Shown: positions 10,599 through 50,967 of the stretch, in pieces | Numbering within the stretch: position 1 is the stretch's first letter | How the letters are laid out: every line of letters begins with the position of its first letter | Source: Halichondria panicea | Taxonomy: Eukaryota > Porifera > Demospongiae > Suberitida > Halichondriidae | Assembly: GCF_963675165.1 (NCBI RefSeq) | Contig: NC_087377.1 | Location: 7,891,122-7,955,121, forward strand | DNA length: 64,000 bases | Direction: 5' to 3' | The notes under the pieces: generated by a model | The model's database searches: none | Told to the model about the DNA's origin: nothing | The model's input: the letters and a program-made list of their open reading frames with translations, nothing else | Program-made: the position numbers and the translations under genes

Positions 10599-10629
10599 AT
10601 GTGGTGTGTAGTGTTAGAAATCGTTTTAT
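10599..10629 (+). CDS. possible signal-peptide exon of the Ig/FN3/sushi receptor
   Basis: An ATG opens a short hydrophobic frame (MWCVVLEIVL) that reaches a GTGAGA donor with one base left over. That is the phase needed by the first certain exon at 10855. The hydrophobic core is short for a signal peptide. The alternative start is the in-frame ATG at 10785, which would read through the acceptor and give a weakly hydrophobic leader. Confidence 0.25.
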
Positions 10630-10854
10630 GTGAGATTATTCTCTTTTATGTCTGCAGGAACTAAACTAACATGTTAGGCATATTGATTTATTAAATTGCG
10701 ATAGCTATTTAATCAATGAGACACTCAAGCTAGCGTTATTTATATGCATGTACAGTGTAGTATATACCTGCTTCTGTTATAACAATGCAAATTTTAAATA
10801 TAGGTGTAAAACCGTACCGTAATAATTGTTTCTTGTACATGTACCTATATACAG

Positions 10855-13800
10855 TCCAGGCTACTCCAGGCCTCATACTGCCAGCAGAGAGAGAAATTGG
10901 ACTGGGTTGTATACCAGAGGGCATGACTGTCAGTTATGAATGCACTGTCACTGATCCAACAGATTCCCCTGTGGCCAATACAGTATGGCTGGGAACTGCC
11001 TTCAACTGTCATTCAGCAGCATCTGCTACAACGAACAATCGGATCACTCTAGCTCATAGTCAGTTTCAGCTTGGAGCTGTTGCTGGTGATTGTGGAGATT
11101 TGTCTGCAATGATTATCAGATTTATTGGAAATGAATACACGTCAAGACTGGTTCTAACAAACACTACCGGGTTGAATGGAATGACTGTCATATGTACTTT
11201 GAGTGACAAAGCTGCTGGAAATGACACTGTCAAAATCGGAGGTGAGTATAACTACATGTATATCTACCTCACTGTGTCTAACTTTTGACAGCCTCTCCTC
11301 CTCCCCCTCGAATTTCCATGGTGGAGGTCACTTCTACTTCATCCTTCACTGTCAGTTGGACCCCGCCCTCCGATATCAGCAATGTAGGGAGCTACGTGTT
11401 CACTGTGACTGGAGAGGACTGTGGATGTGTAAACACCAATGTCAGTTCTGACATAACTAGTGTGATATGTTCTGATTACATGGTCAATGGTCAAACCTGC
11501 TACTTTGAAGTCAGTACTATCTCTAAAGACTGTGGTTTCAACAGTGAATCTGTGAATGAATCTGTGTCATTGATGGGTAAGCACTAAGTACATGTAGCTT
11601 ACTTGTCAGTTTGTCATCAGTCTAGCTGCGTGTACATTTTGTAGTGCCTCCCACACCCGAACACTTCATGGTAACGTTTACTGAAGATGAATTAATAGTG
11701 GTGGGATTCATGCAGCCAGTAAGTTAAGATGTGAGGAAATAACTGTTTAAAACTATTTGATTAGATTGTTCCCCATCTTGCTATAACCTACACTGTGATG
11801 GTTGGAACCAACTTTTCAAGGAATTTCACTAAAGTGACTTGTAACGACACAAGCAGAAGATGTAATCTCACAATCCCTAATCCTAGCAACAGTTACAATG
11901 TCAGTGTCGTGGCCTCTAACATATTTGGCTCTGGACCTCCTGCACTTTATTTTGGTAAGATGTTAGATCCCTCCTACATGTACCCTTGCAATATAACTGT
12001 TGTGTTGCTTGACCCATGCACAGAATGCAATCCAGAAGATCTTGGTAGTAACCAGACTTCTCTCCGTGGACAAGGAATGGTCAATGTATCTAACGGACTA
12101 ATTCACTACAGTGGTGTGTCTCCTGACTCTATTGCAACGTTACAATGCAATGATGGGTACAGAGCAAATTCCTTCCTCAACAGGACGTGCATGTTTGATG
12201 GACAATGGAGTGAGGGGGCATTGGAATGCGTTATAGTGGATGGAGAAACTATTTCTCCTCGTAAGTTAGAATTGTCTTTCTTGTTACATTCATCGTGCGT
12301 TATTGATATCAACCAATGTCTTTCATTCTATTGTATCGTGGTGCTTTGGAAATTACGATACATACACTTCTTCGAGTTACATTGACTTTGATTGAGGTGT
12401 TTGTAAATTGAGAAGCCCTCATCTTTGAAACCAGTATGGACAAAGCCATATTTTTTTCTTAGATACCATGCCTGCCTGTCCTCTTTACTGTGCTGTTTTG
12501 GTTGGCGTTTTCGTGCTCATATTGATAATCGTTTGCATTGCAATTGCACTCTACATTCTAAAGAAGTCCGGAAGAGAATGCTTCGCATCAATCAACACTT
12601 CTGATAAGATTCAACTTAGTGCAGTCAATCGAGAGTAAGCCCGTTTTTTCATCAATCATAATTATTCTATACCTATTTATAGGAGCCCAACCACAAATGA
12701 ATCACCACTCTCCTCAGTTGATACGCAACCATCGAATGCCAAGATAAACGTAAACAGGTATATAAAATTATCTGAAAATCACATAGTTAACTGCAGATTA
12801 TCATGTTTTGTCTACAGGAGCGAGCCATCCAAATCCACTCAAGTGGATACGTATGCAAACCCTGAAGACTTCATTAAAACACCACCATACATGCAGCCAC
12901 AAAAGAACGAGAGGGCTGAGGATCAGGGGGAAGTTCCGAAATCCCTTAATGTAGCAATCACTGATGAATTGCCGGTGAGCCACAATTACTTTTCATGTCA
13001 TGTACGTAACAGTGGGTGGCAATTGTTTAAAGTTTGCTTGTTTTGACTGTATAGGGCTCGTTGTCTCTTTGTCCATAGCTAAATGTAGGTGTAGGTATAG
13101 CAGTATTGTCGATAATGCTATAAGTGCATAAGCCTTGTACGGGTATACAAATTAATGTGTCCATTGTTGCTGTTGTACTGTTCACTTAGTTTTGTACACA
13201 GTGTATTGTGGATCGGTATAAACTTTACTGAGCTCGAGGAAATTGAGTCATGAATTGAAACCACATCTGATTTCATAGCCCAAACACACAAAATTTATGT
13301 ATAATTGAGTAAACTTACTTACATCTGTCACTTACAGTAAGAAAACAATGAGCATGCAAGCGTTTTATAAGCTTATAATTATGGTCCGTACAGATATCAT
13401 GTGATTTTCTGCACTTTGGCTTAATTCTTTGTTTCCCTGTATGATAGCGAATCTATCCATTGTTTTACTACATGTCAATTCACTTTCCTACGAATCACTG
13501 CAGTTGATTGTTGAGTTTCAAAACTACTAAGGATGTCGAGTGTCTACATAGATAGAGTATTAAAATACAACTAAGCTGCTTGTGACTGAATGTCAATTTG
13601 ACCCAATACAATTATTACTGCATTTATTCAATTATGGCATGGCAAGGGTGTATGAAGAGAAGAGGGCATGCAACAGATTTCGAGCAAAAACAAAAACTGC
13701 AAGTGGGCGGTGGAATTTACTGGTAATTATCTAAAAATAGATGTGTGTAAGTACATGTGCAGATATAAGCAGTTTTTGCTCACACGTTGGACTAATAGTG

Positions 13801-14077
13801 AGTTGCATGCCCTCTTCTCTTCATACGCCCTTGATTATGGTGATCCGTGTAGTGTTGTACTGCATGTGCATTATTTGACTGAGTGAGTACCTTAATCACA
13901 TAATTATGCACACACATGCTTTATGTACAGTGTGCTCAGTACGAGAGCATTGAAGTAGCCAGACCTGTTAAAGTAACTTCAACCCAACCTTCGCAAGAAA
14001 TGTACTCTGAAGTTTTTGATGCCTTGCCAAAAGGAAAATCCACAATAATTGTGAAGAAAGTAACAGTCACAAATTAA
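10855..14077 (+). CDS. single-pass receptor: Ig-like, FN3, sushi, TM, tyrosine tail
   Basis: Likely a cell-surface recognition or adhesion receptor. Nine exons close in phase: 10855-11241, 11292-11576, 11645-11718, 11765-11954, 12024-12260, 12463-12634, 12683-12757, 12818-12974 and 13931-14077 (about 573 residues without the leader). Order: Ig-like domain (YEC...W...VIC pattern), FN3 (SFTVSWTPPSD), a second FN3 split by an intron, a sushi/CCP module (ATLQCNDGYR...RTC...W), a membrane span (VLVGVFVLILIIVCIAIALY), then a basic stop-transfer and a tail. Tail tyrosines lie in YANPEDF, PPYM, QYESIEV and MYSEVF, so YxxI/V motifs resemble SH2-docking or ITIM-like sites. The start is unsettled (see 10599 and 10785). 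The last intron holds a MITE. The family is not named; domain calls come from motif reading. Confidence 0.8.
12463..12634 (+). other. membrane-span exon of the receptor
   Basis: The exon encodes a run of about 24 hydrophobic residues (core CAVLVGVFVLILIIVCIAIA) followed by LKKSGR, a normal inside-positive stop-transfer. Everything upstream is therefore extracellular and the tyrosine motifs are cytoplasmic. Confidence 0.8.
13643..13833. mobile_element. MITE in the last intron of the receptor
   Basis: Left end CAAGGGTGTATGAAGAGAAG is mirrored by the right end, CTTCTCTTCATACGCCCTTG. A diverged relative is at about 50298-50517 in intron 1 of the minus-strand receptor. It is non-coding and its TSD is unclear. 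Confidence 0.7.
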
Positions 14078-14560: not shown

Positions 14561-14565
14561 TTAAA

Positions 14566-15336: not shown

Positions 15337-15339
15337 TAA

Positions 15340-16540: not shown

Positions 16541-16549
16541 AGAATTAAC

Positions 16550-18605: not shown

Positions 18606-18609
18606 ATAC

Positions 18610-19205: not shown

Positions 19206-19214
19206 AATTATGTA

Positions 19215-19539: not shown

Positions 19540-19615
19540 AAAAAATACAGGGGCTGGAAATGGGTCAACCCTACTTGAAACACACGTGACTGGAGAGGAC
19601 TGTGAATGTGAGAGC
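19540..19615 (+). pseudogene. relic of an FN3 exon
   Basis: About 30 bases match the FN3 exon at 11292-11576 almost exactly (residues VTGEDCEC against VTGEDCGC), while the surrounding exon is not recoverable. This ties the 19.8-20.5 kb tail exons to an ancestral duplicate of the whole receptor. Confidence 0.45.
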
Positions 19616-19767: not shown

Positions 19768-20484
19768 GTGCAGGCAATGTATAAGGGGTCGTTGACGGTG
19801 AAGTTTCCACTATCAATCAAGATTATTATGTTCACTTTTCTTTGTATAGTGTCAACCCATCAAGTAATGAAGCAGAATCGACACTTTACTCCTGAGAACG
19901 AAGTACCCCCTGTGATAAACTGTGAGTTTGTACTATACAACTTCTGTGCATGTTAAAAGGTTTCACCTTTGGAAACCATTCACTATACATTCCTGCATGC
20001 ATTTGTTTAGGGAAGTGACCTTGAGGCTTAAGGTTGAGATGTACGCAAATCCAATCAATCTCGTACCACCTAGTGATGGGTAAGTTATCCATATCCATAG
20101 TACATTAAGTATTTGTTCTCTAATACACTTTATATTTGTGTGTTACACTGACTATATAGACGCAGCCAGAACACATAATTATAAGTGAAGCAATACGTAC
20201 CATTTTGCAGGAAAGATACCTCTAAGCGTCAAGTGAAAATGTATGCAGACCCGGACGACATCATACCAACTCCCCAGCTGCCGCCACGCAATTTCGACAA
20301 AGGAGAGCATTTAAACATGCCTGTTCAAGACAGGGGTCAGGTGAGTAGCATGAGTATTTTTGCTAGCAATGCTGTTTATACCATGTTTGAAGCTATAAAA
20401 CACCAAATTTATTACATACATGAATGTCCGTAGAATGTATACACATATACTCCCGTTGGCAAATTAGTCAATCTCCATGCATAA
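19768..20484 (+). CDS. shortened receptor relative: TM plus tyrosine tail
   Basis: A chain of exons 19768-19921, 20016-20079, 20211-20340 and 20434-20484 closes in phase and ends in a stop (about 132 residues). The first exon has a hydrophobic stretch (FPLSIKIIMFTFLCIVST) followed by basic residues. The next two each carry a copy of the tail module of the gene at 10855 (EMYANPINLVPP and KMYADPDDIIPTP against TYANPEDFIKTPP). The last exon gives NVYTYTPVGKL and a stop. Just upstream, 19583-19612 matches the FN3 exon of that gene (GTGACTGGAGAGGACTGTGA) but is not in an intact exon. It is either a pseudogene that lost its ectodomain or a small adaptor-like membrane protein. The acceptor at 20015 is less certain than the other splice sites. 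Confidence 0.4.
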
Positions 20485-20635: not shown

Positions 20636-21028
20636 CAGGGTTTTGCAGAATCTTTGCAATATCCACAAAAAAGCGTTTTGTGTTGAGCATTCCTTATAAG
20701 GTTATCTGTGGTCAACCGTAAAGTTGTAGATCTTAGTCAGCATGTCAACAATGCACTATTCTACATGATGGATCAACTTGAGATTCTCAGCAACACTTTG
20801 ATAAGACAGTCCAAGCAGCTCTGTCTGATGCATTATTCTCCATCTTAAATTAATGATGCCTTGGTCAGCTTTTTTCACAAGAAAAAGCCATTTTGTTTTT
20901 GAATTTTGCTTCCTAAGCAGACTTGGCATTTCACCACAATGTGTTTATGACACCACAATGTGTAAAGATTAGATATCCATATAAGGAACGCTCTACACCC
21001 TCAATTTCAAAGATTCTGCAAAACCCTG
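20636..21028 (-). mobile_element. Tc1/mariner-like deletion derivative, copy 2
   Basis: Inverted sibling of 693-1082 with the same CAGGGTTTTGCAGAATCTTT ends and TA on both sides (20634-20635 and 21029-21030). The HTH-bearing frame lies on the minus strand and carries small indels relative to copy 1. Confidence 0.75.
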
Positions 21029-21029
21029 T

Positions 21030-22000
21030 ACTGTATAATCATATTGAGTGCTTTCATAATTGTTACAATAATAATTATTATATCCTCCACTAGAAATTGA
21101 AGCTTTGAAGCAACTTAAGCATGAACTGTACCATGTTGATAAACAGTCACAATTAAGCAGGCACAATAGTTTCATTTTCCGAGGCACTAGGTATTACGTC
21201 TATTGGTAGACCAATTAGTAGTATGTATAGTCCCGAGCCGCACACAGTACTTTGACTGTTATGTATGTGTAAATGTACTTGCGTCCAACACGTTTAACAT
21301 AGCGTATTTTGCAAGTTGGCTTTGGTGTGCACAGTAAAATGCATGGGTGTTGTCTGTGTACTACTGTAGTTACTATAGAAAATGCCCATATTTTACTGTG
21401 CACAATGCCAAGCAACTTGCAATGATGACTAAACTTGGGTCACTTCCAGTTTCAGTACAAACTATGTTCTCAACGTATCTTTATTTGTCATGCCTAGTGC
21501 TTATGCAAACATGTACTTGAAACTGGTGGCCTTAAGCATATAATATAACACAGCTATATACGAGTTCTTTTATGCGAGATGGTTATGATTTACAGCACTC
21601 TTAACCTTTATTACTCTTTTGGACTCTTAATTGTGGGGCCTATAATAATAATTTATTTACGACACACAGGGTTTCTGTCAGATGATTGCATTAAGTGGGT
21701 ATGTTTGTATAATAGTCATAGTTCAAGGGCGTAGACAACTTCAGACAAGTATAGGGGGCCTCTGAGGTTGACAAGGCACGGTGACTCTTGATACATGAAC
21801 TAATGGTAGGATTATTTTAAAGAAACTGGAAGAGTTTCAGGTACAATATTGCCTACAGCCTTGTATGTAACATGTAGTGTCATAGCCCATTAGTGTACAT
21901 AAGCGGCTTAGTAGCATAATTATGGGTTACCTAATGGATCTACAGTTTACTGTTAGTTTTTACTCTGTTGCAATCTGTGCATTATTAGTTTTGTTTTAAA
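21030..22000. other. no gene seen
   Basis: AT-rich; several minus-strand ORFs of about 65 codons are uninformative. TGCACAGTAAAATGCATGG near 21330 and TTTTACTGTGCACAATGCC near 21393 form a short imperfect inverted repeat. Confidence 0.4.
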
Positions 22001-32411: not shown

Positions 32412-32585
32412 TGTAACAATTATTCATTGATTATAATATTATTCATTGTTTTTGTGACAGTTGGTCATGTGATGTGACAGAGTCTTGATATGATAAAATT
32501 AACAGTGAAAGTGAGCATGGAGCAAGCTGCTTTTATCTAGTTGCATCGCCTGCAATAAATAGTGTTAGTGGCCGTAGCCGTCACA
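32412..32585 (+). repeat. left LTR
   Basis: Starts TGTAACAATTATTC and ends GTAGCCGTCACA (TG...CA). At 174 bases it is short for a Ty3-type LTR. It contains AATAAA near its end (CTGCAATAAATAG), a plausible polyadenylation signal. Confidence 0.9.
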
Positions 32586-32606
32586 TTTGGCGACCCTGCC
32601 AGGACC
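32586..32606 (+). promoter_or_regulatory. primer-binding site candidate
   Basis: TTTGGCGACCCTGCCAGGAC directly follows the LTR. The part from TGGCGACC on could pair with a tRNA 3' end (…GGTCGCCA). Which tRNA was not determined. Confidence 0.6.
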
Positions 32607-33239
32607 TGTGTGTTCATGTCAAGGCGTGAGTTGCAGGCTTTGACCCAAGACTCCGGACACGTGTTGTTACGAAAACGGTTGAGAACTACTCATACGGAGA
32701 GTATAGAGACCATGGAACAGTTACAGACAGATTTGGAGACACTTCGACAAGAGTTGGCTGCTGCTAAGGAAGAATCCAAGAAGCAGTTGGAGGAGATAGA
32801 GCAGCTTCGAGCTGAAATGACGGAGACGACCCGTACCCATCGCATTCAAGTAGAAGAGGCGACCCGGAACCGTGAAGAAGAAATCCGTGCGCTGCTCCAA
32901 GGACAGCTAGAGGAATCTGAGACAAGAGCTGAGCTAAAGCATTTGAGGGCTCTGGAGCAACTTAGAGTTGAGCATCAAGAGGCGATCCACCGAGAACAGA
33001 ATTAAGTGGACAGAGAGCGACGACAAGCTCAAGAGAGGGAACAAACCCTGACTGATGCGTTTGAATTAGAGAAGTATAATCTACAAGGACAATTGGAAGC
33101 AGTTACTGCTGAACTACGATCACTTCAGGAAGAAGTTGACTCGGAGGATGACCCGTCTATTGACGATGAGGCGGAGGTTGGACATACCACACCGCTAGAG
33201 AGGGCAGAACCCTCAAGTACCCCCCATATGGAGAGAGGT

Positions 33240-33395
33240 ACCGACCCAACTGAAGATCGAGGAACTGAAAGAACTGATCGAGGAACTGAAAGAACTCGAG
33301 GAACTGAAAGAAGAACTGAAGACCGAGGGACTGAAAGAAGCACTGATCGAGGAACTGAAAGAACTACCGATCGAAGAACTGAAACTGATACACGA
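33240..33395 (+). repeat. tandem 21-27 base repeats in gag
   Basis: Imperfect copies of GATCGAGGAACTGAAAGAAC run head to tail and encode an Asp-Arg-Gly-Thr-Glu-Arg series, a charged low-complexity linker. Confidence 0.8.
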
Positions 33396-33758
33396 AGAAC
33401 AGAGCCACCAGGAGGAGAGGAACGACTGCTGCCCCCTGCTGGAAGAGAGTCTCCTAGTGAGTCATTACTTGTAGCGACAATGACAAGGCTTTTGGAAGCT
33501 CACACAGAGGCAATTGCTGCCCAAACACAAGCTACAGCTGCCCAGCACCTACCACCTACCACCCCTAAAGGCCTTTACCGGTGAAGGGAAACAAATGGAA
33601 GAAGATGGATTCGAGCGTTGGATTGAACAGTTTGAAGAACGAGCTAAAGTTGCCGGATGGAGTACTGAGCAAAAGTTACATCAGAGTTACATCAGATTAA
33701 ATTGTTATTGGAGAAAACGGCTCTGAGAGTTCTCCGTGCTCTCCCAGACATGGACCAG

Positions 33759-34040
33759 AGTCTGGGTAGATTATCACATTCGTTACCCAGTCGCTTTACA
33801 GCTATCAGGGCTTCTAACTGTTCTATTGACAAACTGTTCAAATGTGTCTCCTCACTTGGTTTGGTCTCCAGTAGTGCATTACGGGATGTACTGGGGTTAG
33901 AGTTATTTCCACTGTGATTTCCACTGTGATTTCCACTGTGACGGTTTAACTGACTTGACCTCCCGCTTCTGTAAGGGTTAGTGTTTCTCCCAGGTGCTTC
34001 CGGCTGATTCGTAACGAATGTGATAATCTACCCAGAGACG
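33759..34040. repeat. inverted segment bounded by a 25-base inverted repeat
   Basis: TGGGTAGATTATCACATTCG at 33766-33785 returns as its reverse complement near 34015-34034. The interval is closed in the + frames but open on the minus strand, with a Ser/Asn/Gly-rich reading that lines up in composition with the pol frame restarting at 34049. The simplest reading is an inversion with an inverted duplication at its edge, at the gag-pol junction. Confidence 0.65.
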
Positions 34041-34048
34041 AAGCTACG

Positions 34049-37000: not shown

Positions 37001-37645
37001 GGAGTGTGTGATGTACTTGGAATCAAAAAGATAAACACCTCAGGTTATCACCCGCAAACCGATGGTCTAGTTGAAAAATTCAATTCGACACTTGTTAGTA
37101 TGATCGCTAAATGCTGTGATACTAAGAAACGTGACTGGGACGATCATCTACCATACCTTCTGTATGCGTATCGAACAATGATGCAAGAGTCCACCCAGGA
37201 ATCACCATTCTATCTTTTGTATGGCCGAGATGCACGAATACCTACGGAGACGGGATTGAGTATGCCCACACCCGTGTATGAGCTGGATGCAGAAGATTAT
37301 CGGACTGAACTTGTTTTGAAACTTTCCAATGCGTGGAGTATTGCTAAAGAGAAGATTGAGAGAGCACAAGATCATCAGAAATTACAGTATGACAAGCACA
37401 CCCGGAGAAGTGAAATACAAGTAGGCGATCGTGTGATGGTATTCATGCCAAGCAAAGTGCAGGGTAAAAATAGGAAGCTCGCACGACCATACCACGGCCC
37501 CTACAGAGTGTTAAATGTAACGCCTACGAATGCAGAAGTAGCCTTGATCGACAGGCCACGTAACCCTTCCATATTTGTGTCTCTGACCCGAGTTCGCAGA
37601 TGTTATGATGACATGGATGACCACTCGTGGACAGGTAGCAACTAG
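34049..37645 (+). CDS. pol: Ty3-type Pol polyprotein (protease, RT, RNase H, integrase)
   Basis: An open frame of 1198 codons. The aspartic protease active site DTGA is near residue 35. RT has the SSLDLASGYWQ block and the YLDD catalytic pair near residue 475. RNase H has TDASGLGLGAVLSQ near 622, then TDHAA and SNANADALSR. Integrase has an HHCC zinc domain (near 835-880, ending CLVCASRKG) and DDE residues in VGVDVLQLP (about 910), LSDRGTNF (about 970) and VEKFN (about 1007). All visible catalytic residues are intact. The stop lies where the R1 repeat begins, so the C-terminus may be artificially short; the tail seems displaced to 38370-38595. It could supply enzymes in trans if expressed. Confidence 0.9.
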   Translation: MNTVTVNQEQSPKAVGPTVYVPVNVCGVPVEAMLDTGAQSTIISRELLHEIVRHLRTEDQPLPELKTPSARLYGKDGVEGGREIVITAQIDVDIAVDGESVCVPVFVQPGSSQPLLLGMNAIPALSFSLLRPNGQSLIARSNPNPEISIVRLVKGVIVPSLKGSFVRVKIDNVHALPGGSVLFEPSNGQLEPKGLYSQESLITIDDDGCMLVPMVNVHGASTQLLEGMEIGCVQPLDVVPVLKPGDVCCTNTTCASVDTVVKTSERMNQIKTVLGIDSMILSEGQQIQLTQLLYDYSDVFALNGAELGCTNVVRHCIDTGDSHPVKQQPYRTPFIHRETISRMVEEMEEQGVVQPSMSPWASPVVIVPKKDGSKRFCVDYRRLNAVTRRDVYPLPRIDDILDAAGGAKYFSSLDLASGYWQVELDQEAREKSAFTTHRGLFEFTRMPFGLCNAPATFQRLMQATLARLEGTSCFVYLDDILVVSDTFEDHLKHLSEVFMRLRRAGLRLKPKKCILLRKEVPYLGHVLSAAGVRPDPAKIDTVKNYPTPTDVTKIRQFYGLASYYRRFISGFARIAHPLHRLTRKDVPYEWSPDCETAFERLKECLVTAPILSYPECGAGKQFVLETDASGLGLGAVLSQEKEGQLHPIAYASRTLDIHECNYGISELETLGLVWAVRHFRPYVLGHHTVVYTDHAACTSLLNNPRPTGKLARWALTIQEMDLEIKHRSGKSNANADALSRNPIINAVETFAMTIGEDEAIPRPDVEQMTKLKEAQRSDPELLDLCRYLEADVLPTDEKRAKRIVLESDRFELIHGVLHYEPPTSIGRLCVVVPRSDRDNLLQEGHASCFAGHFSAKKVYDRLRRHYWWKGMRADVYHFCRKCLVCASRKGPGRAVRPPLVPIPIGAPFHRVGVDVLQLPVTHKGNRYVVCFVDYLTKWVEAFPMADQKADTIARILVEQVVCRHGVPEQLLSDRGTNFLSELIKGVCDVLGIKKINTSGYHPQTDGLVEKFNSTLVSMIAKCCDTKKRDWDDHLPYLLYAYRTMMQESTQESPFYLLYGRDARIPTETGLSMPTPVYELDAEDYRTELVLKLSNAWSIAKEKIERAQDHQKLQYDKHTRRSEIQVGDRVMVFMPSKVQGKNRKLARPYHGPYRVLNVTPTNAEVALIDRPRNPSIFVSLTRVRRCYDDMDDHSWTGSN

Positions 37646-37647
37646 AG

Positions 37648-38370
37648 CACTAAAGTGCAAACCCTCGGCTGGTGACATGATTATAAAGAAACCAGAAGAC
37701 TGATATAATGCAGCGCAGTGCATATAGTGATGTTGTTATCATCATCATGCATGACTTGCACAGCAACTCAGGAGCAATAAAACTAAACTAGACTGGAGGC
37801 GTGCTGAAACATTTGAGAACAAGTAGTACTATAGATAATATGCACTGTGGATTAGGATCACAGCAAAGAAGCCTGGAGTCTCAGAGAAATATGGCTCCAG
37901 GTCCTGCATGGATCCCAGTCAGCTAAAGCAAGCTTTCTACTTTAGTGACCCTGTTCCATTGTTTCTGGACCTGGTACAGGATCACTTCAGTTATAAGTAA
38001 CGCATGTGCAAGTTCTGTTCAAGCTACATTTTGCTCGCTTTTATTAGACAAAGAAGCTTTAACACCGAAAGCTTAGAAGTACTGACTTGTTATGTGGAGG
38101 CTACCCATGCTGTAAACGCAGTGCTAGAGCATCCAGGTAAGCAGACCCAGTCACAAGCTTGTTCAAGCTTCTTAGCTTTTGCTCGACAAAGAAGCTTTAA
38201 CATCACAATCTGTCACTATTTAAACCAAGATATTGTTGTGTGAAGGCTATCCATGCTGTAAACGCAGTGCTGTGGCATCCAGGTGAGTAGATATACTCGT
38301 GACAAACAGACAAACAAACAAACAAACAAACAAACCAACAGACTACTATACCCGTGGCCGCCCACGCGCC
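37648..38370 (+). repeat. R1 family repeat, copy 3, nested in the LTR element
   Basis: The longest R1 copy. It begins near AGCACTAAAGTGCAA, includes the block identical to the window start, the GCTGTAAACGCAGTGC units, and ends CACGCGCCTCGGGTAA. It separates the Pol stop from the acidic tail ORF. Because both LTRs look identical, the element probably moved with R1 already on board. Confidence 0.75.
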
Positions 38371-38595
38371 TCGGGTAATAAAAAGTCCCAGAAGAAGGCC
38401 CAACAAGAAGTACCCCCTGATCAAGAAGTGCCACTACCACCCCCAACAGTAGAGAATTTGGACGAGGATTTAAACGAGAATTTGGACGAGAACACCCCCT
38501 CGGAACCCCCTGAGCCGTCACCTTTGAAGGAGTCAATAAGCCAGAATACCCGAGCAAGGACCCGCGGTAGGAAGGAAAACCCGGAAGTTAAGTAA
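38371..38595 (+). pseudogene. displaced C-terminal tail of Pol
   Basis: The ORF continues after the R1 end as a Pro/Glu-rich then Arg-rich tail (SQNTRARTRGRKENPEVK and a stop), a composition common at the extreme C-terminus of Ty3 integrases. It lacks a start of its own. It is inferred to be the old Pol end cut off by the R1 insertion. Confidence 0.5.
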
Positions 38596-38679
38596 CGTTT
38601 CTACATTTAACTGTTAGAATACCATTATTTATCTTATTCAGTTATTAGCTGTATGGTTGTGTTTTGAGAATCGAGGACG

Positions 38680-38702
38680 ATCTTCAGAGTAGGAGCGGGA
38701 AT
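38680..38702 (+). promoter_or_regulatory. polypurine tract candidate
   Basis: AGAGTAGGAGCGGGAAT stands directly before the right LTR, the position where plus-strand DNA synthesis is primed. Confidence 0.6.
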
Positions 38703-38876
38703 TGTAACAATTATTCATTGATTATAATATTATTCATTGTTTTTGTGACAGTTGGTCATGTGATGTGACAGAGTCTTGATATGATAAAATTAACAGTGAA
38801 AGTGAGCATGGAGCAAGCTGCTTTTATCTAGTTGCATCGCCTGCAATAAATAGTGTTAGTGGCCGTAGCCGTCACA
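38703..38876 (+). repeat. right LTR
   Basis: Reads identical to 32412-32585 by eye, same length, TG...CA, followed by the GATA duplication. Confidence 0.9.
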
Positions 38877-40034: not shown

Positions 40035-41494
40035 CCCTACTTGTATGTAGACATCACCTCCCCTCTGTTGTTGTTCAACAACTCACCTCAAATCAGTGGG
40101 AGAGATCTGACAGCTTTCTACAACCTGACAGGCTGTGCCAGGGTAACTTGTAAGGTCAGGAATCAAGAAGATTGTGAGTCCTTAAAATACTATACATGCA
40201 CCGATGTTTACCAATCATTAATTTTATTGCATGGAGTCAGTCACGGTATTATAAGGTTCTAATATTCTGCCAAGATTCTATAGTGATTTCCTAAATCTAT
40301 TATTATAGTATAATTATTCATGTGTGCATGTAAAAACACGCAGGTTCTCAACGTATCGGTAGTTTCGAGGGTGTGTGGGGTTTGGACAGAGTGCGATCAA
40401 TAGGAGGACACTGCGACAGTTTAAACTCGCAAGTCGTCACTGTTGCAGGCAAACAGTAGACTGGTCAAACTCCGTGTAGAGACTCGTGTTGCACAGTCAG
40501 CATATCAGATAAGATTCTAACTGGCTGCGGTTTTCGTGACGTCACTATACTGCTGTGCTACGTAGAGTTTTCTAGTGATACGTCACTATCAACGATATTG
40601 CGGTAACCGCATGCGGTTAGTTGCCACAAATATCGTGGCAAACCTTACACGAGTCTCTACACGGAGTTTGACCAGTCTACTGTTCGCCTGCAACAGTGAC
40701 GGCTTGCGAGTCTAGCGACAGTTTACTATTACTGTGGATGCATACTGTCCCAACCAGATAGTCCCAGTGTTTGAGGACAGGCCAATCAGAAGTGGTGAGT
40801 CATAATACAGTAACGCAGCAGGATACTTGCATGTATAAGTATTTTGCATTTTGTCTGTTCTGAGACTCTCCAACGTATATACAGATAATACTCAGTGCAG
40901 TCAGCACTTCACTGACCAACAGTACAAGTTTGACCCCGTCTCTGGAAATGTGACTGTGGAGTGGGAGGGAACTGGACCCGATGCAACTGTTCAAGTCACC
41001 CAGTTCATGTGCATATTACCCAATACGGGCATATTTTCCTGTAAGTCCAGAAAAAACTGGCTTTATATAGTGCTACGTATAAGCATATACAGTATGCATA
41101 GCAGGTAATTATTTTCGTATTGCATGCATGGTGAACATTTTTGAATTTTCGTATTGTAGAGCATCATCCAAAAATTGCTCTACATACCGCAATATCACTA
41201 TATAATTTATATGCTGAGCTGTACGAATGTTAAAAAAACTTAGTTGAGTACAAAAATGTTCACCAACGAACTCTACGGTATATATGCAGCCATTAAAATT
41301 AATGTGTAGTCATAAAATAACCGTATTGCTTGTGATCTCAATCACGTTATTTCATATTTTTACCCAATACAGGTATTAGTCCCCTTGTCATCACCAGTCT
41401 GTCCCCTGGAAGCCACACCCTCTTCGTCACACCAGTGGGAATCAGTGGGTGTACAAGGATGAGCCCTACGAGCTTACTTATAACCATCTGAACA
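40035..41494 (+). pseudogene. decayed duplicate of the Calx-beta gene C-terminal exons
   Basis: Four exons match those at 59205-60837 in order. 40035-40175 gives LYVDITSPLLLFNNSPQISG. 40345-40794 corresponds to SFEGVWFGQ...DAYCPNQIVPVFEDRPIR but has a two-base insertion in GTGGGGTTTGG and a 292-base MITE. 40886-41040 has FTDQQYKFDPVSGNVTVEWE. 41373-41494 has SPLVITSLSPGSHTLFVTPV and the same stop. The 5' end is cut by the LTR at 40034. These frame breaks make it a pseudogene. Confidence 0.75.
40423..40714. mobile_element. MITE in a pseudogene exon, 10-bp TSD
   Basis: The ends, near ACTCGCAAGTCGTCACTG and its reverse complement, form TIRs of about 60 bases. GCGACAGTTT stands on both sides (40413-40422 and 40715-40724). 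TSDs of 8-11 bases point to a Mutator-like (MULE) superfamily. A short relative, AGACTCGCATGCTGTCACTG, lies at about 51682-51735. Confidence 0.75.
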
Positions 41495-41739
41495 AACTCA
41501 TAAAATAATAATTATGCAGACATACATTTGTGCTCCTCCTATTCATAACGCCTCTCAGATTAAGCATCATTATCATAGCTGTCAATAATAACATGTTCAT
41601 CAAACAGAAAACAGAACATTGTAGCTGTCAAGTTTACTCATGTAGACTATATATTTTGTCATTGTGGTGTAGCAACACACTAAAATATATTTGTTTAGTT
41701 AATGATCTTTACCCACCTGTAACCGATCTCCGAACAATG

Positions 41740-42165
41740 GTCTGATGTTGTGTTTGTAGATCCTCGAGTGTGACACAGTACGTACTGACATTGATCAGCT
41801 TGTCTCCAATCCCTGGATTAACAGGTCAATTAATCTACTTGCCGTAATGTAATTTCCGACCCTCTGTGGCACCATACATGCATTCCCCCTATTGACGGCT
41901 ATTATCACTTGCAATCATGCACCCGCATGTCCCCTCCCCGGCAGTGTTGGACTACATTGATCTCTCCACCACCTTCACATTCTCTTCTGGCACCTTGAGT
42001 GCATGTATGCAGTTATCGGCCATTGATGACAGTACGTACGTCAGTCTCCGTACGAGTCCACAGAAAGGTTGAGTGTAGAGCTGGAGTCCACTGACCCCTA
42101 AGTCACTGTATATCCACTCCCTCCGTACTCGTCACTCTAATGGACAATAATGATGGTCAGTGATA
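41740..42165 (+). pseudogene. decayed Calx-beta half-domain exon, copy A
   Basis: 41950-42160 matches the exon at 57302-57496 (TGTTGGACTACATTGATCTC, CTGGAGTCCACTGAC, CCCTCCGTACTCGTCACT) but contains indels near 42040-42065 and in-frame stops (CCCTAA, CTAATGG). The region before it shares the landmark GTTAATGATCTTTACCCA with 51466, 61193 and 62666. Confidence 0.7.
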
Positions 42166-43800: not shown

Positions 43801-43802
43801 AA

Positions 43803-46800
43803 TCAAACAGCTGGTATACGAGTTAGAAGCATCGGCTCATCATATATGTGGGGTGGACTAGGACTTCTTTCCGTCATCTGACTGCACATACCGCTTCTGA
43901 TATTCAAAATATTGTAGGCATCATTTTCAGTCAGCAACGTCACTGGATCGTACGCTTCATTTCGCTTTAGACCATCAGAAATGCTTGGCTCCTGTAAAGT
44001 ATATACATGTAGTATATCGAAGATTTATCATACCTGTTTAGTGGGATTTGCTATGCTTGATGCACCAAGGCCTGTGATCAGATCCTGTTTAAAATAGAAT
44101 ATAGTCGCATAATTATACAAGATGAAGGGTTAAATGGTTAGTTACACTCTGTCCCCCTATAATTAGAAACAGGTATCTCACTATAATTCTATAGTAAAAT
44201 GGCCCCCAAATCTCTTCAGCGTCATGTGTCACAGTGCATTCTGGAATTACATTTTGAATTGGCTCCAGTTCCGTAATGGGAATCATGCACGGCTATGACA
44301 CTACAATGACAGCCTATTATTATTATGAGCATGCATGTGGCATTGCCCATGCACGCACGCAGTTATATATAGTCAGTGTCGATGGCCATGCACCTTATGC
44401 ATGCAGTAACGACATTTTGGTACCAAAATTACCCGATAATTGTACGGTATTATCAGTGAACCGTAATCATAGCTGACACTTTTGTTCTGAGACAGAGAAA
44501 CATCATAAATATTACGAGGATATAAGCAATCTCAAGCAAATCTCCATTTTGAACACTTGGAATTTTACATGTATGCATGTCTTTCTAATATTAATTTGTA
44601 CTAAGTTACCTTATCTGTTTTCCTTCTCCAAACAAACACAATGAAGATCACCACTACTACTAGTACTAGGGAAGTAATGAAAATAGCAGCAGCAATTCCT
44701 CCTGCAAGTTTTCAAAATATAATATAATAGCCAGATGTGCATGCATGCCATTGTATATAGGTGATCATTGACAAATACAATGATAGGCTGATTATGTACT
44801 ACGATGAAGGCTCCCTGTGAAGTTAACAAAAAGCATAATATTATAGAGTCTTCATATGAAAATTAATTATTATGTCTATGTGTAGTGCAAATCTGGATGT
44901 AATCATTATGGTGTACTTCAAACTAAAGACAGTAGTATATAGCCAACGTGCAAGGTATAATTAAGCTTCCTATATAGCTTTTATTTGACAAAGAAGCTTA
45001 AAACACCAATTCAAAATCTGCCACTATATCAATAACTTGTTGTGTGTATACTAAACACAATGCTCTGGCAGCCAGGTGAGCATGCAGACTCAGAATTTAC
45101 ACAGACACACAAACCAACAGACTAGCCGTGGCCTCCTATACGCATCTCGAGTTAATTAGTTTGATCACCTACTATCGCTGTCTCTACATCAGGGGTTGCT
45201 GGAGTATGAGCATCTGTACGAGTGTCTGCAAAGGAGACAGTATGATCATTAATTTGTGAAAATCTGATACTGGTATACCTGAGGCAGTAGTAGAAGTGGA
45301 CAAGCCAATGGGAATCATGGTTTTGTATGATGGCACTTCATGAAGTGCATTAGACCATCGTTTGAATATGGCAGCAAAGTAGATTCCCTTAGGTATGCTT
45401 TCAGTGCAGTTTTGGCCAGAGTCATTGACAGTCCGTGGAATCAGTGTGATGCTGCCTTGGTCAAGCCCATATTGGGAGTGGATGATCCCCACACAACTAG
45501 AGCTGCAACTGATGCAAATCATTCCGTTGACTTCAGTAGCATTCATATCCTCTCCTCCTGGATTGGGTACAGCATACACGTGTGTAACAGTATACTTTAC
45601 ACACAATAATTACATATTATTAATATTGTACCCACGGACATTTACCTGCCCTGCGTTCAGTGGTACCATATCGAGTATTATCCAGTGTTTTGGTAGGTAG
45701 AACAGCCGGAAAAATTAGTTTTCTCTCAGGTTTCATAACATCATTCAAATCAAAAACAGCCAACTTGTAAACACGATCAGCAAGGTTACCAACAGTGGAT
45801 GAAGTATTTTCCCTGTACACTGCTTGGTAGTGTAAATCATAAGGGGAGTCAACAGAGTACACAATGGCAACGAAACCAGTATCATTAGACTTTTGAAGGT
45901 AGTTGACAGTGATTGAAACTTCATTTTCCTCCATAATTAAATTGGTCACTTTATACACGTCATGAGTACCTATAGGAAAGAATATTCACAAATAGACATT
46001 GGGGCGCTCTGTGATTCCCCCCCTAGAAACCTGAAAAATTAATGATATGTAAATTTTCATGGTTTGAAACACACAAAAAATCCAAATTGCACCTCAGATA
46101 ATCATTTGTAAAATTCTCCGGGGAACGACCTCCAGACCCCCCCCCTAAATTAAATATATGAAACCCTGACAAGTATACTTACTTATATCCATGGTCATAA
46201 CTGGTGGTATGTTTTGTAGATTAATTTCAGCTAGTAGAGTCAAATTACACCGTCGATGGTGTTCAATATTACAGCTACTACAGTTAAGATCAAGTACAAT
46301 CATCTGTTTATTTCCAGAAACTTCAGTTGACGAATCAGTGGAACAAATACAGGGATCAGCAACTTCTCGGTCAATGTACTGAAGTAGAACGGAATACCTA
46401 TCTGGTACTCGACACTCATGGACGAGCTGCAAATAGGATTGTATATGCACATGCAGTATATCACCGACACCAATTTAATATAAAACAATACCTTGGTTTT
46501 ATAATTCAGCTGTATTAACTCACACTTGCGGGAAATGTCACTTGTAGAGGGTTCAATTCCGTATTTGTAGTGAAATTAACCTCATCAATGGGTATTGCTT
46601 GTGGTTCTGTTGCACAATAAAGTATACGTATTAACAATAACGTTGATTAACCTTACCATAGCTAAACTGTGCTGTGCTTGTGGTTCCATTCAAACTTCCG
46701 TCATTGTTGCTTCGTGGTGTCACAGAAAAGCTGTAAGTACCCACATGATAGGCTACATCAAAAAGATATTGGGTGGTAGTGATGTTACATCCAGACTGCA

Positions 46801-49800
46801 GCATGTTTTCCTCTGTTTCACAAGTGACGTTATACACATCCACACAGTACTGAATGTCTGGTTCAGCAGTGGTCAAGTTCAAGGAGAAGGGAGCATCCCA
46901 GGTGACGTTGAGTTGTAAACAGTTCCCAGCAACATTGCTCACAGTCAGATCAGCGACAGCAGGAAGAGGTCCTGGGTAAATACACAACTGAGTATACACA
47001 TACATTTGTGTGTCAGGATATTAGGGCCGGTATATATATAGTACTACAGCTACATGCATGTATATTCATTAGTGTGAACAATAACACGCAATAATTTACC
47101 TTGCACTTGCAATGTAGCATTTACTGACAATTTGGATATGAACACTCGTCCGTCTCTAACTACTGCCTCACACTGCACAACAATGTTGTTGTACTGTGCT
47201 GTGGCTGGGATAGTCAGTGTTGCTGGGGTATCACCAGACGATGGGGTAAAAGTCACATCAGGTGGGTAATTACCGTCAGTGGGAAACTCTCCATTGAGCC
47301 CCCAATTGTAACTTTGTGCGCCAAGATACCGACACTCGAACACTGCATCTACCCCTTGGGCCTGCACCACTGATACTGGTTGCACCATAAATTGGCATGC
47401 TACAGATACAGTAAAATGCATTCACCGCAGGGTTGAGATTAAAGCACACTGTATAGATCTCACATGTATACCGCCTATAAAATAGCTACCCTAAAGGTGC
47501 CACCGTTTAATCTTAACACCAAACTGAACAGCCTAAGTTATGCCAAATTAATCAACCACCAAGGTAAATTTGAATGTGGTCGCCAGTCTAAAAGCCCATC
47601 TTAATTTTAAGGCGGACAAAGTACTAGGCTCTCATTTGATGCGAGAAAGTATATAGGAAATCATTTTGTTGGAACAGCATTAAAAATGTTAAAGGTCGTA
47701 AAACTTACTTTAGGCCCAGCCCACTGCAACAAAAAAGAAACAGGCGGGCCTGATAACCAAATAATCTGTTTTTTCTGGCCTGACGAGTCGGTACATGGAC
47801 ATGCAAGCAAGGTACATGCATGTATACAGTAGTGTGATTGTGTGTGAACTGCTACAGCTGCTCATTGATCAATAAAGTGCGATTTCTATAAGTTTCTAGT
47901 CACGTTTTCTATGTGTCGAGTTTGCAAAATAATGTAGAGTTACTTATGCAAAGGTCAACCGCGAACGCTTGACCAGCAGCTATGAATTTTAATTTGTCTT
48001 GCTCCAAGAATGCATTTACTAAAGGAACAAAAAAAGGGTTGCACAGGCCAACTCGACTTAATATAGCTCCTTGACTGGCTAACAGTAGCCATAGTTAGGC
48101 TGACTATAAGCACTAGCCTCGTTCCCAGGCCGATCCATCTCCAATTGAACGCTATAGGTCGACAAATGCGTCCTACTATGCATACACTTCTTAATTTTGA
48201 TCTGATCGGAACTCCGACCTGACCAAAAAAATGCAACTAAAGTGCTCTTTCCTGTGAAAATAGAACAGGCTAGACTAGAAGCTTCTAATCAAAAAACAAC
48301 AAAAACAAGTTGACATTCAAACATCTTAGCGTAACCATAGACATAAGAAGGGAGAGGGATGGGAAACGAAGCACGTGCGCACAATCACTTCTGTGTAATG
48401 CCAAAAGTTGATCCGTGTTTCGTCTCTAGACACCCCGCCAACCCAGCGGGAAATGTTATTACTATCATTCACAGCTCCCCACTGGGACTCCTAGTCCTGT
48501 GCTGAGCATCCACGCCTACTGTGCATCATATAGAAGCGTTGTGTATCCGGCTCACCAAGAGCTTGAAAGGCAGTTTTTGAGTGTTGTATTATCGTTTCGG
48601 CTCTATCTAGTGGCTTTGTGTACCTTCTACAAAGAGAGGCTGTGACTACAGCCCAAAATATTAATGATTCCCTCTTTCTTAAGTAGCTGGGCATTGTATG
48701 CAAGTAAAATCAAAGCCACTTGGCTTTAGGTTGGGAAGTAATATTCATTTTTGTCTTAGTGAGCTGGTTTTTGAAAAGCCGACTCTTTGTGTACCCATTT
48801 AGAAAGTTATGTCAATGATTGAATGTAGGTAAATGTCTCTTTGTATTCATTGATAGTTCGTTCATCGTATCGGCACAGTATTTTACGACAGAACTTTGCT
48901 ACATAATTTCCATAATTCTCTATCGTGTCTGTGACTGTACTGGAATACTCAACGGTACAAACAGAGCTCCTCTCAAGAATTTGCCTGTCAAAGCTGCTTT
49001 TTACTGCTTGGAGGGGTCTCACTAACTATTGCTGCTACCTTGTTGTGACTGTGTTCCACTAGCCATTGCTAGCTCAGTAGCTAGTTTATAGCCTAGTACT
49101 ATAGCTAGAAGCATGGGCTGGAGGAAATAAAGAAGAAAACGTTGACCGAAACGCGGATCGTCAATGCTATTTACGTAGCGTTTCCCATCCCTCTCCCTTA
49201 TTATATCTATGGCGTAACAACAACTGACATTTTTTTTACAGAACTGACATTAATCAAAGAGGCTCAAACTAAATACTAAGAGCAGAGTCCCTAGGTGGAG
49301 TTTCAGAAAAGTGTGAACACAGAGGAGGTACGACACAGTCACATGACCAGCCAAAAGGATTATGAATCTCTTTAACTTGTGCATGAATTATCATTCAAGA
49401 CTTTGATATGGTTTTTGGCGTGTATCTTTCAAGAAATACACTTGACGTTTCTAAGATTAGGCTGGTTGATTTTTGGGCTTATACTGACGTGGAATACCAA
49501 TTTCAACAACCACTTAGATATTATTGTAATTCTGTTTTAGAGTGTTTAATAAGTATTCTGTGCCTGCATTCAAGATGCCAATATTTGAGCCTTGATTCTT
49601 ACAACAAATCTAGTAAAACTCCAGCTACTAGCTAGCAACAAATTCACTACTCTAAATTTGTCTCTTTATGGTGCTTACATGCCACCAGTTGAATGTCGTC
49701 ATTGGAGATTGGAAACGGAAGTGATTCACGTGATGTTTTACAATGAAGTCTACATAGTGGCTCTGGGACCATCCGTGTATCTCTTCATAACTCCCGCAAA

Positions 49801-50967
49801 AGCCCGGGAAACTTATTGTGTCCAATGCATACATCTCAGAGCTACCCCCATTACTGAATCACATGCCCCCTGATAGTAGGTATCAATAATATTATTGGAA
49901 ACGAAGAAAATATAATCTCGATTGTCGTGAAGTAGCTAGAGGTACACAGAGCGCTTTTCATGCTTGTGTTCCTATATAGAACCTATGATATAGCTAAGGC
50001 TGTGTAACTAAATAGTCTCCTGTGTCCCAAATGGCCTCGAGTATGAGATGAAAGTTGATGTTTAGCAGCAGAACTGCTCGTGGACTTCTTACAGAGAGCA
50101 AAACAATTCTCATGAATTATTCATGTTTAGCCCTCGTGTTAAAAAGTAAACCTTGATTAAACTGCGGAGATACACGGATGGTACTTTGAGGGTACTTCCG
50201 TTTCCAATCCCTCTCTACTCTATCTATGGCTTAACCGAGTGTCGTACTTCCTCTTGAACAAAAGACTCTAGTACTATGATGCAATACAGCATAATACCAA
50301 TGGTGTAAAGAAGAGAGGGCATGCAACAGCAAAAGAGCCGAGTTCAAACGTGGTGAATGAATGTGCATGATGTGCATGAAATGCTAAAAAATAGAAATTT
50401 TTATTTTTAGCACTGTATGCAAATTCAATTCATCCGACCACGTTTGAATTCTGCTATAGCTACGTGTACGTGTACTGATAGTGAGTTGCATGCCATCTTT
50501 TCTTTTATACGCCCTTGATAATACTAAGTGTAGATTAATTAACATCAGCAAACATAAACAGTGCTCAGACGGTCTCTCCCCTATATAGGAGGAGGGCGGC
50601 TGATTCATGTAGCCTCGAGACCAGCCGTTCGTTATCTGAAAGAACGCCTGGTCAAGTTCTAATGTAGCACTCGTTCTATGGTCCAGGAACTTCTTGGACC
50701 GGTAATTGCCCACACAAGGTCCGTACAAGGTGTATTACCCATGAATATCATTATGATGCTATAAAACGCTGACTTAGCTGGACAAGTTGCACATTAGAAC
50801 TTGACCAGGCGTTCTTTCAGATAACGAACGGCTGGTCTCGAGGCTATGATTCATGAGACTAGATTTACTTACAATAATAGTTACTACTCACTTGTCGTAT
50901 GTGATAGTATGAATGTGAGCATCACTAGTCCAGTCAGTCCCTGTGACCATCTATGATGTGACCCCAT
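43803..50967 (-). CDS. single-pass receptor: signal peptide, Ig, FN3, TM, tyrosine tail
   Basis: Likely a cell-surface signalling receptor of 696 residues. Twelve exons, all in phase: 50967-50892, 47399-47100, 46971-46657, 46606-46524, 46426-46183, 45969-45646, 45557-45279, 45225-45169, 44701-44610, 44262-44182, 44084-44034 and 43991-43803. The leader has a hydrophobic core (GLTGLVMLTFILSHTT). Ig: AVFECRYLG...YNW...NNIVVQCEA. FN3: LQLNVTWDAPF...VGTYSFSVTPR. Three further cysteine-bearing modules are unassigned. The membrane span is AAAIFITSLVLVVVVIFIVF, then WRRK. Tail tyrosines: NEAYDPV, NDAYNIL, HIYDEPM, which are SH2-docking-like. Exon 10 has a weak acceptor. Intron 1 (3.5 kb) is full of transposons. 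Confidence 0.8.
44610..44701 (-). other. membrane-span exon of the minus-strand receptor
   Basis: About 21 consecutive hydrophobic residues (IFITSLVLVVVVIFIVFVW) precede RRKTDK. Only the phase-2 reading is hydrophobic and open across the exon, which also fixes the donor of the preceding exon at 45168-45167. Confidence 0.8.
44970..45155 (+). repeat. R1 family repeat, partial copy 4, in an intron
   Basis: Contains TTTATTTGACAAAGAAGCTT, ATAACTTGTTGTGTG, and the end-like CCGTGGCCTCCTATACGCAT. It lies in the intron between 45169 and 44701 of the minus-strand receptor. Confidence 0.6.
48335..49211. mobile_element. CATAGATAG-family DNA transposon, 7-bp TSD, in intron 1
   Basis: Left CATAGACATAAGAAGGGAGA is mirrored at the right end, ending CTTATTATATCTATG. 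GCGTAAC flanks both ends (48328-48334 and 49212-49218). The inner TIR GGGATGGGAAACG resembles that of 8559-10117. No transposase is seen in 877 bases. Confidence 0.75.
49310..49700. mobile_element. internal fragment of the CAGTGGCGTAGG element, inverted
   Basis: The reverse complement of about 7050-7480: AGAGGAGGTACGACAC, GTCACATGACCAGCCAAAAG and CCAGTTGAATGTCGTCATTG all occur in both. The termini are missing, so it is a truncated copy in intron 1 of the minus-strand receptor. Confidence 0.6.
49701..50226. mobile_element. TIR element related to the CATAGATAG family, left end truncated
   Basis: GATTGGAAACGGAAGTG near the left faces CACTT-like CTTCCGTTTCCAATCCCTCT, then CTATCTATGG on the right. 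The interior matches 7585-8200 inverted. The outermost left bases are missing where it meets 49700. Confidence 0.55.
50298..50517. mobile_element. relative of the 13643-13833 MITE
   Basis: AAGAGAGGGCATGCAACAG on the left and GAGTTGCATGCCATCTTTTC...CGCCCTTG on the right mirror each other imperfectly, older than the copy at 13643. It lies in intron 1 of the minus-strand receptor. Confidence 0.6.
50610..50846. mobile_element. MITE with 9-bp TSD
   Basis: TAGCCTCGAGACCAGCCGTT starts a near-perfect TIR of about 55 bases, and the right end is its reverse complement. TGATTCATG flanks both ends (50601-50609 and 50847-50855). The 9-base TSD suggests a Mutator-like element. It stands only 46 bases from the signal-peptide exon. 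Confidence 0.8.
50892..50967 (-). CDS. signal-peptide exon of the minus-strand receptor
   Basis: The ATG at 50967 gives MGSHHRWSQG, then a hydrophobic core (LTGLVMLTFIL), and ends after one extra base at a GTGAGT donor. That phase fits the Ig exon at 47399. The start is chosen because it alone gives a signal peptide and joins in frame. Confidence 0.7.

Follow-up and report, generated by a model that had tools for sequence, protein, structure and literature searches.

The closest described counterpart, in its logic, to the locus analysed here is the family of fester co-receptors (FcoR) at the fuhc locus of Botryllus schlosseri. These are type I membrane proteins that combine immunoglobulin (Ig)-like and Sushi domains with a long tail carrying Yxx[ILV] "core" motifs, form a multigene family, and are encoded in the same locus as a candidate ligand that is secreted and polymorphic (PMC12065747). 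The locus under study lies in a 64,000-nucleotide stretch of genomic DNA, called the window throughout (C1:7891122-7955121; positions without a contig name are counted from its first base), which contains two receptor genes, A and B, and genes with Calx-beta repeats that resemble sponge aggregation factors. Likened to it by architecture, FcoR proteins differ in having a V-type Ig, a Sushi and two C2-type Ig domains, with no FN3 mentioned in the available text, and in including canonical immunoreceptor tyrosine-based inhibitory motifs (ITIM) and hemITAM. The ligand genes are unrelated, being of Ig/EGF type in the available account of fuhc and of Calx-beta type here, where they are only candidates.

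Next closest is the Alr family of Hydractinia symbiolongicarpus, an Ig-type family of 41 members in one complex, whose candidate genes carry motifs of the ITIM type or of the activating (ITAM) type (PMC11999971, PMC12065747). This likeness is again one of architecture, and the available text of those sources mentions no Sushi or Calx-beta genes. Vertebrate paired receptors such as KIR, LILR and FcR-like share with this locus the setting of near-identical ectodomains on different tails in a tandem cluster. They differ in that strict ITIM and ITAM are absent here, the motif shared by gene B and the gene A paralogue A2 having Val at Y+3 in its first half. According to PMC12065747, candidate allorecognition proteins are not conserved among sponges, cnidarians and ascidians, and ITIM/ITAM-type motifs recur in the cnidarian and ascidian candidates.

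We propose that the window belongs to a multigene cluster of recognition receptors that would work like paired immune-type receptors, with the Calx-beta genes as candidate ligands, a reading to which we assign a probability of roughly 0.47. One assembly was analysed (131.5 Mb, 39 contigs), with gene models read from genomic sequence and the neighbourhood compared over 304 kb joined around the window (C1:7.751-8.055 Mb). The gene models, their clustering, the exchange of their parts, the tyrosines common to copies and the SH2 domains of the genome were all computed here. Genome-wide A-like, B-like and Calx-beta places are those among the matches listed, and the Pfam cut-offs were 25 bits for FN3 and 20.7 bits for Sushi.

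Mosaic structure of the receptor genes

Exchange of receptor parts is, as read from DNA and protein comparisons, the strongest result. Upstream of about position 12818, gene A (copy A1) is 98-100% DNA-identical to A2 (C1:7862310-7865115), with 98.8% identity over 2.8 kb. Identity is 90% in exon 12818-12974 and is then lost, and A2 enters tail exons that are 79-84% identical to the tails of gene B and its copy. A2 is a single open frame of 605 residues through this A/B tail junction; its A/B-type tail-exon junctions are in phase 0, so that exchange keeps the frame. From about 12819 past the stop, A1 is 93-100% DNA-identical to a different paralogue, A6 (C1:7979552-7982812), a 0.9-kb intron included. 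Because the A2 match ends and the A6 match begins at about 12.8 kb, A1 is a mosaic of an A2-like ectodomain and an A6-like tail, and the A1/A6 and A1/A2 changes both fall at one tail exon.

The protein comparison of A1 with A6 follows the same boundary. Identity is 36% in the Ig-like exon, 46-66% in the FN3 exons and 83% in the Sushi exon, and 96% and 100% in the last two tail exons. Synonymous divergence (dS) agrees with this, falling from 0.99 (first exon) through 0.27 (Sushi) to 0.06 and 0.03 (final pair of tail exons). Between these two copies, the ratio of non-synonymous to synonymous divergence (dN/dS) ranges from 0.16 to 0.62 over eight exons; for the last exon, where dS is 0.03, it is 0. 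A1 and A2 thus carry near-identical ectodomains on different signalling tails, which by analogy is the anatomy of paired receptors.

Copies up to 98-99% identical over stretches might also arise if A1, A2, A6 and the Calx-beta copies were alleles or haplotigs set in tandem during assembly. Such an artefact is very unlikely, as the identical stretches are dispersed and at most about 5 kb long, copies of B occur in either orientation, and the partner of A1 changes at the tail exon. Long alignments of the cluster showed no long tandem haplotigs.

Receptor genes and their relatives

The initial annotation had described two full-length-type receptor genes with Ig plus FN3 ectodomains, one membrane span and cytoplasmic tyrosines, and a shortened relative that likewise joined a single span to such tyrosines. 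Both full-length models hold (Table 1). Gene A has GT-AG borders at each of its eight introns and an open frame of 574 residues; the initial base of codon 1, which would come from an upstream exon that was not located, was assumed. The order from the N-terminus is a cysteine-rich domain, two FN3 domains, a Sushi domain, a single strong membrane span (peak mean hydropathy 3.5) and a tail, some 150 residues long, that contains four tyrosine motifs. FN3 (33.2 bits) and Sushi/CCP (28.5 bits) both exceed their Pfam cut-offs; in A6 Sushi reaches 27.4 bits and FN3, at 20.2 bits, stays under the cut-off. The FN3 part of the earlier description therefore stands for A, while the Ig part lacks a Pfam match: the first domain is probably Ig-like, judging from the architecture and from a cysteine pattern with Ig-like landmarks. 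A PDB profile search with this domain stayed at noise level (beta-agarase on top at E 0.1, V-type VISTA at E 0.67).

Gene B has a signal peptide, as does its copy B0, and one membrane span (peak hydropathy 3.4), followed by a tail with the motifs YDYG, YGSL, YNYR, YRDL, YDPV, YNIL and YDEP. For B an Ig plus FN3 ectodomain is likely, short of proof, because the Ig segment (Pfam Ig_3, E 0.03) and the FN3-like segments are all under the cut-offs; FN3-like segments of a B-like relative reach E 0.005-0.01. A PDB search with the Ig segment of B gave no match at E 0.1, and tail exon T1 matched nothing else within the 304 kb compared. CARD9, a PDB match for B at E 0.6, was rejected, as were Pfam matches on A and B to RIFIN, Ig_J, ASFV p17 and similar families, which lay below cut-off and on the span or on generic beta domains.

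The third, shortened element is a decayed remnant, and its status as a working receptor is not supported. The tyrosines attributed to it are present in its two tail-exon-like pieces, which carry MYANP and MYADP, the second piece matching the A tail exon 12818-12974 weakly (E 0.015); the membrane span is not, since inspection of 19768-20484 gave no convincing one. Upstream of the element, at about 19585-19612, an FN3 scrap is visible by eye, and a sister of the remnant lies at C1:7986.1-7986.6 kb. Nor is it supported that the three form one sequence family: similarity between A and B is not significant (best BLASTP E 0.24), and they have in common an architecture, a locus and, via A2, a tail. 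As a whole, the observation of the initial annotation is partly confirmed and its interpretation partly supported; it had overlooked the Sushi domain of A, the Calx-beta genes (51.5-60.8 kb and 40.0-42.1 kb) and the swapping of ectodomains and tails.

Table 1. Features of the window (window positions) and receptor copies on C1 (positions prefixed C1).
Feature	Position	Strand	Remarks
Gene A (A1)	10855-14077	+	nine exons, stop at 14077
A exon, probable Ig-like	10855-11241	+	cysteine pattern, architecture
A exon, FN3	11292-11576	+	
A exons, FN3	11645-11718 and 11765-11954	+	
A exon, Sushi	12024-12260	+	
A exon, membrane span	12463-12634	+	
A exon after span	12683-12757	+	
A tail exon	12818-12974	+	YANP, YMQP
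A last exon	13931-14077	+	YESI, YSEV, stop
Recombination junction in gene A	12683-12974	+	sliding identity (150-base steps), long alignments
Decayed A-like remnant	19768-20340 (initially 19768-20484)	+	tail-exon pieces MYANPINL and MYADPDDIIPTPQLPP
Gene B	50967-43803	-	twelve exons, 687 residues
B exon, signal peptide	50892-50967	-	
B exon, Ig-like	47100-47399	-	
B exon, FN3-like	46657-46971	-	
B middle exons	46524-46606, 46183-46426, 45646-45969, 45279-45557, 45169-45225	-	
B exon, membrane span	44610-44701	-	
B tail exon T1	44433-44486	-	no counterpart found
B tail exon	44034-44084	-	
B last exon	43803-43991	-	YDPV, YNIL, YDEP, stop; B-type signalling tail
Aggregation-factor-like gene	51540-60837	+	Calx-beta repeats about 52.7-59.0 kb; C-terminal module 59246-60834
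Partial second copy, 3' part of aggregation-factor-like gene	40035-42110	+	C-terminal module and one Calx-beta scrap, disrupted
Third scrap, aggregation-factor-like gene family	62111-62400	+	families D2, D8
A-type copy A3	C1:7836.5 kb		
A-type copy A2	C1:7863.0 kb		
A-type copy A1	C1:7902 kb		gene A
A-type copy A4	C1:7955-7958 kb	-	
A-type copy A5	C1:7962.5 kb		
A-type copy A6	C1:7979.6 kb		
B-type copy	C1:7772.8-7779.2 kb	-	exons matching gene B (C1:7772787-7779187)
B-type copy	C1:7793.2-7795.2 kb		ectodomain exons only (C1:7793226-7795224)

The window is part of a cluster of about 230 kb at C1:7.76-7.99 Mb in which we identified six copies of A type and three of B type, some of them broken, gene B being the third of its type. 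Between about 7.76 and 7.989 Mb, copies of A-type, B-type and Calx-beta genes are intermingled, and the remaining sequence up to 8.055 Mb contains no copy of any of them; partial A-type copies exist beyond A1-A6. Directly behind A2, at C1:7866048-7867399, partial A-type 3' ends are seen (a Sushi scrap, two membrane-span exons, and tail exons, one with a stop). In A1, A2 and A6 the frame runs unbroken from the first ectodomain exon through to the stop, the first exon of A3 is interrupted by a stop, and no span or tail was detected in the B-type copy at 7793 kb, which together with the fragments agrees with the suggestion that the family is expanding and decaying. It is very improbable that the whole locus is dying, so that most of its genes would be pseudogenes and the A and B models residual frames. 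The A3 stop, the 19768-20484 remnant, lesions in the Calx-beta gene of the window and the want of a detected signal exon for A would fit such decay, but A1, A2, A6 and B are open over 9-12 exons with canonical introns, and dN/dS is mostly below 1.

Elsewhere in the genome, further A-like matches among those listed lie at C1 8.6, 9.0, 9.6, 10.9, 11.3, 12.9 and 15.1 Mb and on C3, C8 and C9. B-like Ig/FN3 matches, likewise among those listed, comprise a large array at C1:3.43-3.69 Mb with at least 15 places after thinning, and further places on C8 and, on C1, at 6.34 and 7.02-7.49 Mb. One array member (C1:3579500-3589499, + strand 724-2718) shows Ig-FN3-Ig-FN3-like frames, and behind its ectodomain, at C1:3.58 Mb, a short frame with NEAYAPV, IAYEQT and HEYEEV was read by eye, the span not being located. 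The tails are more restricted. Tail exons of A have strong matches in this cluster only, the last motif recurring weakly at five places in C1:8.92-9.66 Mb (E 0.001-0.02), and the B tail has three matches in the genome, each inside the present cluster, of which one belongs to an A-type ectodomain.

Cytoplasmic tyrosines and signalling

A and B each have, as the initial annotation had it, a single span and cytoplasmic tyrosines. Of the seven tail tyrosines that can be compared, six recur across copies when those of the window are counted in. YANP is present in all six close copies, two distant copies having YADP and YADS; YESI or YENI is found in 3/3 copies, YSEV in 4/4 and YMQP in 1/6. YDPV, YNIL and YDEP each occur in all three B-type tail copies. 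A lack of conserved tyrosines among relatives, which would have spoken against the initial annotation, was not seen among the paralogues of this genome, most of which have young tails. Motif counts exceed shuffled tails weakly (p 0.006-0.46 for the motifs present). The B-type tail contains EAYDPV-x8-YNIL in 3/3 copies, an ITAM-like spacing with Val where Ile or Leu is expected, and a form of ITAM that allows Val occurs once each in A2 (shuffle p 0.006) and B (p 0.04). YANP also agrees with two SH2 preferences, YxN of the Grb2-like kind and YxxP of the Crk-like kind.

The genome has 71 SH2 matches. Two SH2 exons, at C1:8613183-8613344 and 8635968-8636129 (minus strand), each lie about 3 kb upstream, on the same strand, of A-type ectodomain exons, and the one that was translated reads as part of a typical SH2 domain. 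The two pairs of SH2 and A-type exons, at C1:8.61 and 8.63 Mb, have apparently been duplicated together. A receptor tyrosine kinase was rejected as an identity for these genes, since the A, A2, A6 and B models reach stops without a kinase domain, and none of the kinase matches listed for the genome (at least 156) falls in the cluster.

Aggregation-factor-like genes

Gene B lies between two copies of a Calx-beta gene. In the longer copy, at 51.5-60.8 kb, two stitched segments match Calx-beta in Pfam (E 1.3e-31 and 6.8e-14), and the C-terminal module of 183 residues has no Pfam match, with no membrane span seen. Three long copies are present on C1 at 7.76, 7.82 and 7.94-7.95 Mb, and several fragments besides; the long copies are mutually mostly 92-98% identical, and 83-89% in the 5' part. 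Sponge aggregation factors are characterized by a specific domain, Wreath. In demosponges they are encoded by clustered genes with extracellular Calx-beta domains (PMC10815962), and the genes of the window resemble them in their Calx-beta repeats and clustering, the module without Pfam match being a point of difference. This resemblance agrees with the earlier attribution of the DNA to a sponge-like animal.

Other genes with the same C-terminal module lie, among the matches listed, at C1:15.27-15.42, 16.21-16.44 and 10.64 Mb and on C4. A separate Calx-beta gene at C2:269229-278225, also among the matches listed, has 12 high-scoring repeats, 11 of them spaced about 406 bases apart. Close to another cluster of Calx-beta genes, the minus strand of C1:15284000-15293999 carries an I-set Ig domain (Pfam E 9e-07) and, by eye, Sushi-like repeats ahead of Calx-beta-like frames; these modules may therefore also meet in one gene.

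Proposed mechanism and alternatives

Under the proposed reading, the diverse single-pass ectodomains (Ig-like, FN3 and Sushi in A; Ig-like and FN3-like in B) would bind a cell-surface or matrix ligand, and a Src-like kinase would phosphorylate the cytoplasmic tyrosines, to which SH2 proteins would then be drawn. Through non-allelic recombination near the tail exons, the same ectodomain may have been set on other tails (A1 and A2) and the same tail on other ectodomains (A1 and A6), and exchangeable tails could wire one specificity to different outputs. The interleaved aggregation-factor-like genes would be the best ligand candidates by position; if they are ligands, the cluster would be a candidate locus for allorecognition or self-recognition. 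Phosphorylation, SH2 recruitment, the ligand and the recognition role are all steps that we infer.

Several findings weigh against this reading. First, on the ectodomain side, the first domain of A goes unmatched in Pfam, single-sequence structure prediction of its Ig region gave a mean predicted local distance difference test score of 40 and was unusable, and upstream scans with a comparison of six upstream regions gave no convincing candidate for a signal-peptide exon of A. No dN/dS is clearly above 1: B exon x7 alone exceeds it, at 1.03 and 1.21 (dS 0.05), and several short exons with a dS of 0 give no ratio. Second, on the tail side, strict ITIM ([ILVS]xYxx[ILV]) and strict ITAM (Yxx[IL]x(6-8)Yxx[IL]) each occur 0 times in each of the four tails tested. 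Most tail copies are young (dS 0.03-0.2), which makes the shared tyrosines weak evidence of constraint; the single deeper comparison is offered by YSEV at C1:7989042 (dS 1.32, dN/dS 0.22). According to PMC5978004, vertebrate-like Syk/Zap70 kinases are found only in animals with CARD-CC/Bcl10, namely cnidarians and bilaterians, so that a sponge may lack the classical ITAM reader; the same text names Shark as another ITAM-linked SH2 kinase. Third, on the ligand side, the Calx-beta copy of the window is broken when judged against its sisters at C1:7.76 and 7.82 Mb, with one frame lesion at a place intact in both and one splice site lost that is still present in the one sister compared; a third site in this copy is suspect. 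Only 2 of 19 receptor clusters, this locus included, lie within 100 kb of Calx-beta genes (p 0.29 and 0.37 under two nulls), and in an Amphimedon grafting transcriptome aggregation-factor adhesion genes were not significantly enriched (PMC5450542).

Part of this evidence would suit ordinary adhesion or signalling receptors with SH2-binding tails, whose mosaics reflect neutral unequal crossing-over in a repeat-rich locus. Duplicated segments of 0.6-5 kb abound in the cluster, recent duplication or conversion accounts for the similarity of tails, and the predominance of dN/dS below 1 and the lack of strict motifs point the same way. Such an explanation is nonetheless rather unlikely, given that A1 and the chimeric A2 both have intact open frames, that tails are kept while ectodomains diverge, and that the tail-exon junctions of A2 preserve phase.

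The ligand role has a stronger competitor. There is close to an even chance that Calx-beta genes and receptors are co-located by history alone and do not act together, as would fit the proximity result and the Amphimedon grafts (PMC5450542), and also the fact that, at the level of similarity used for the search, most other genes with the same C-terminal module, among the matches listed, are not interleaved with A/B-type receptors. Several copies of both kinds nevertheless stand side by side in this cluster. The other near case is on C3, where at 2.81-2.82 Mb only a few kb and a single unrelated frame separate a series of A-like exons from frames of Calx-beta type (read partly by eye). Within 250 kb, 5 of 19 receptor clusters are near Calx-beta genes (p 0.04 and 0.07 under the two nulls). 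These tests used contigs C1-C15 only, with all but C1 set to 8 Mb, and a thinned set of places from the matches listed, three Sushi-only A matches being left out. As proximity was not significant, we do not claim genome-wide linkage of receptors and Calx-beta genes.

Mobile elements in the window

Between the A-like remnant and gene B, at 32412-38876 on the plus strand, lies a Ty3-like retrotransposon (by eye) with an open pol-type frame of 1228 codons (33959-37645). It is flanked by two 174-base direct repeats whose 100% identity suggests a recent insertion. Overlapping reverse-transcriptase-like frames (by eye) of another, apparently decayed retroelement are present on the minus strand at 28500-30482. 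One element occurs in inverted orientation at 691-1065 and 20655-21030, about 20 kb apart, with arms 96-97% complementary, and is probably a small DNA transposon; further inverted-repeat elements in the window have arms of 65-85 bases.

Possible implications for self-recognition in sponges

To our knowledge, no signalling receptor for sponge aggregation factors has been identified, and no such receptor appears in the titles or abstract openings of the literature on sponge aggregation and allorecognition among the matches listed. A bolder form of the proposal is that the cluster is a histocompatibility-type complex of sponges, with aggregation-factor-like ligands and paired-type signalling receptors side by side and one ectodomain set on alternative SH2-binding tails through recombination at a fixed exon junction. 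We regard this as unlikely. If true, it would place the logic of a polymorphic ligand, a clustered Ig/Sushi receptor and a tyrosine tail at the base of animals, in the manner of Hydractinia and Botryllus but with ligands that are unrelated. By analogy with the systems described at the outset, the locus would bring a comparable logic to an animal, presumably a sponge, that possesses genes like those of aggregation factors.

The A1/A2/A6 trio is a clean natural case of recombination swapping receptor tails. Intact receptors, exchangeable tails and candidate ligands in one compact locus offer specific genes that can be genotyped in individuals that fuse or reject, and the question of self and non-self in sponges thereby becomes directly testable.

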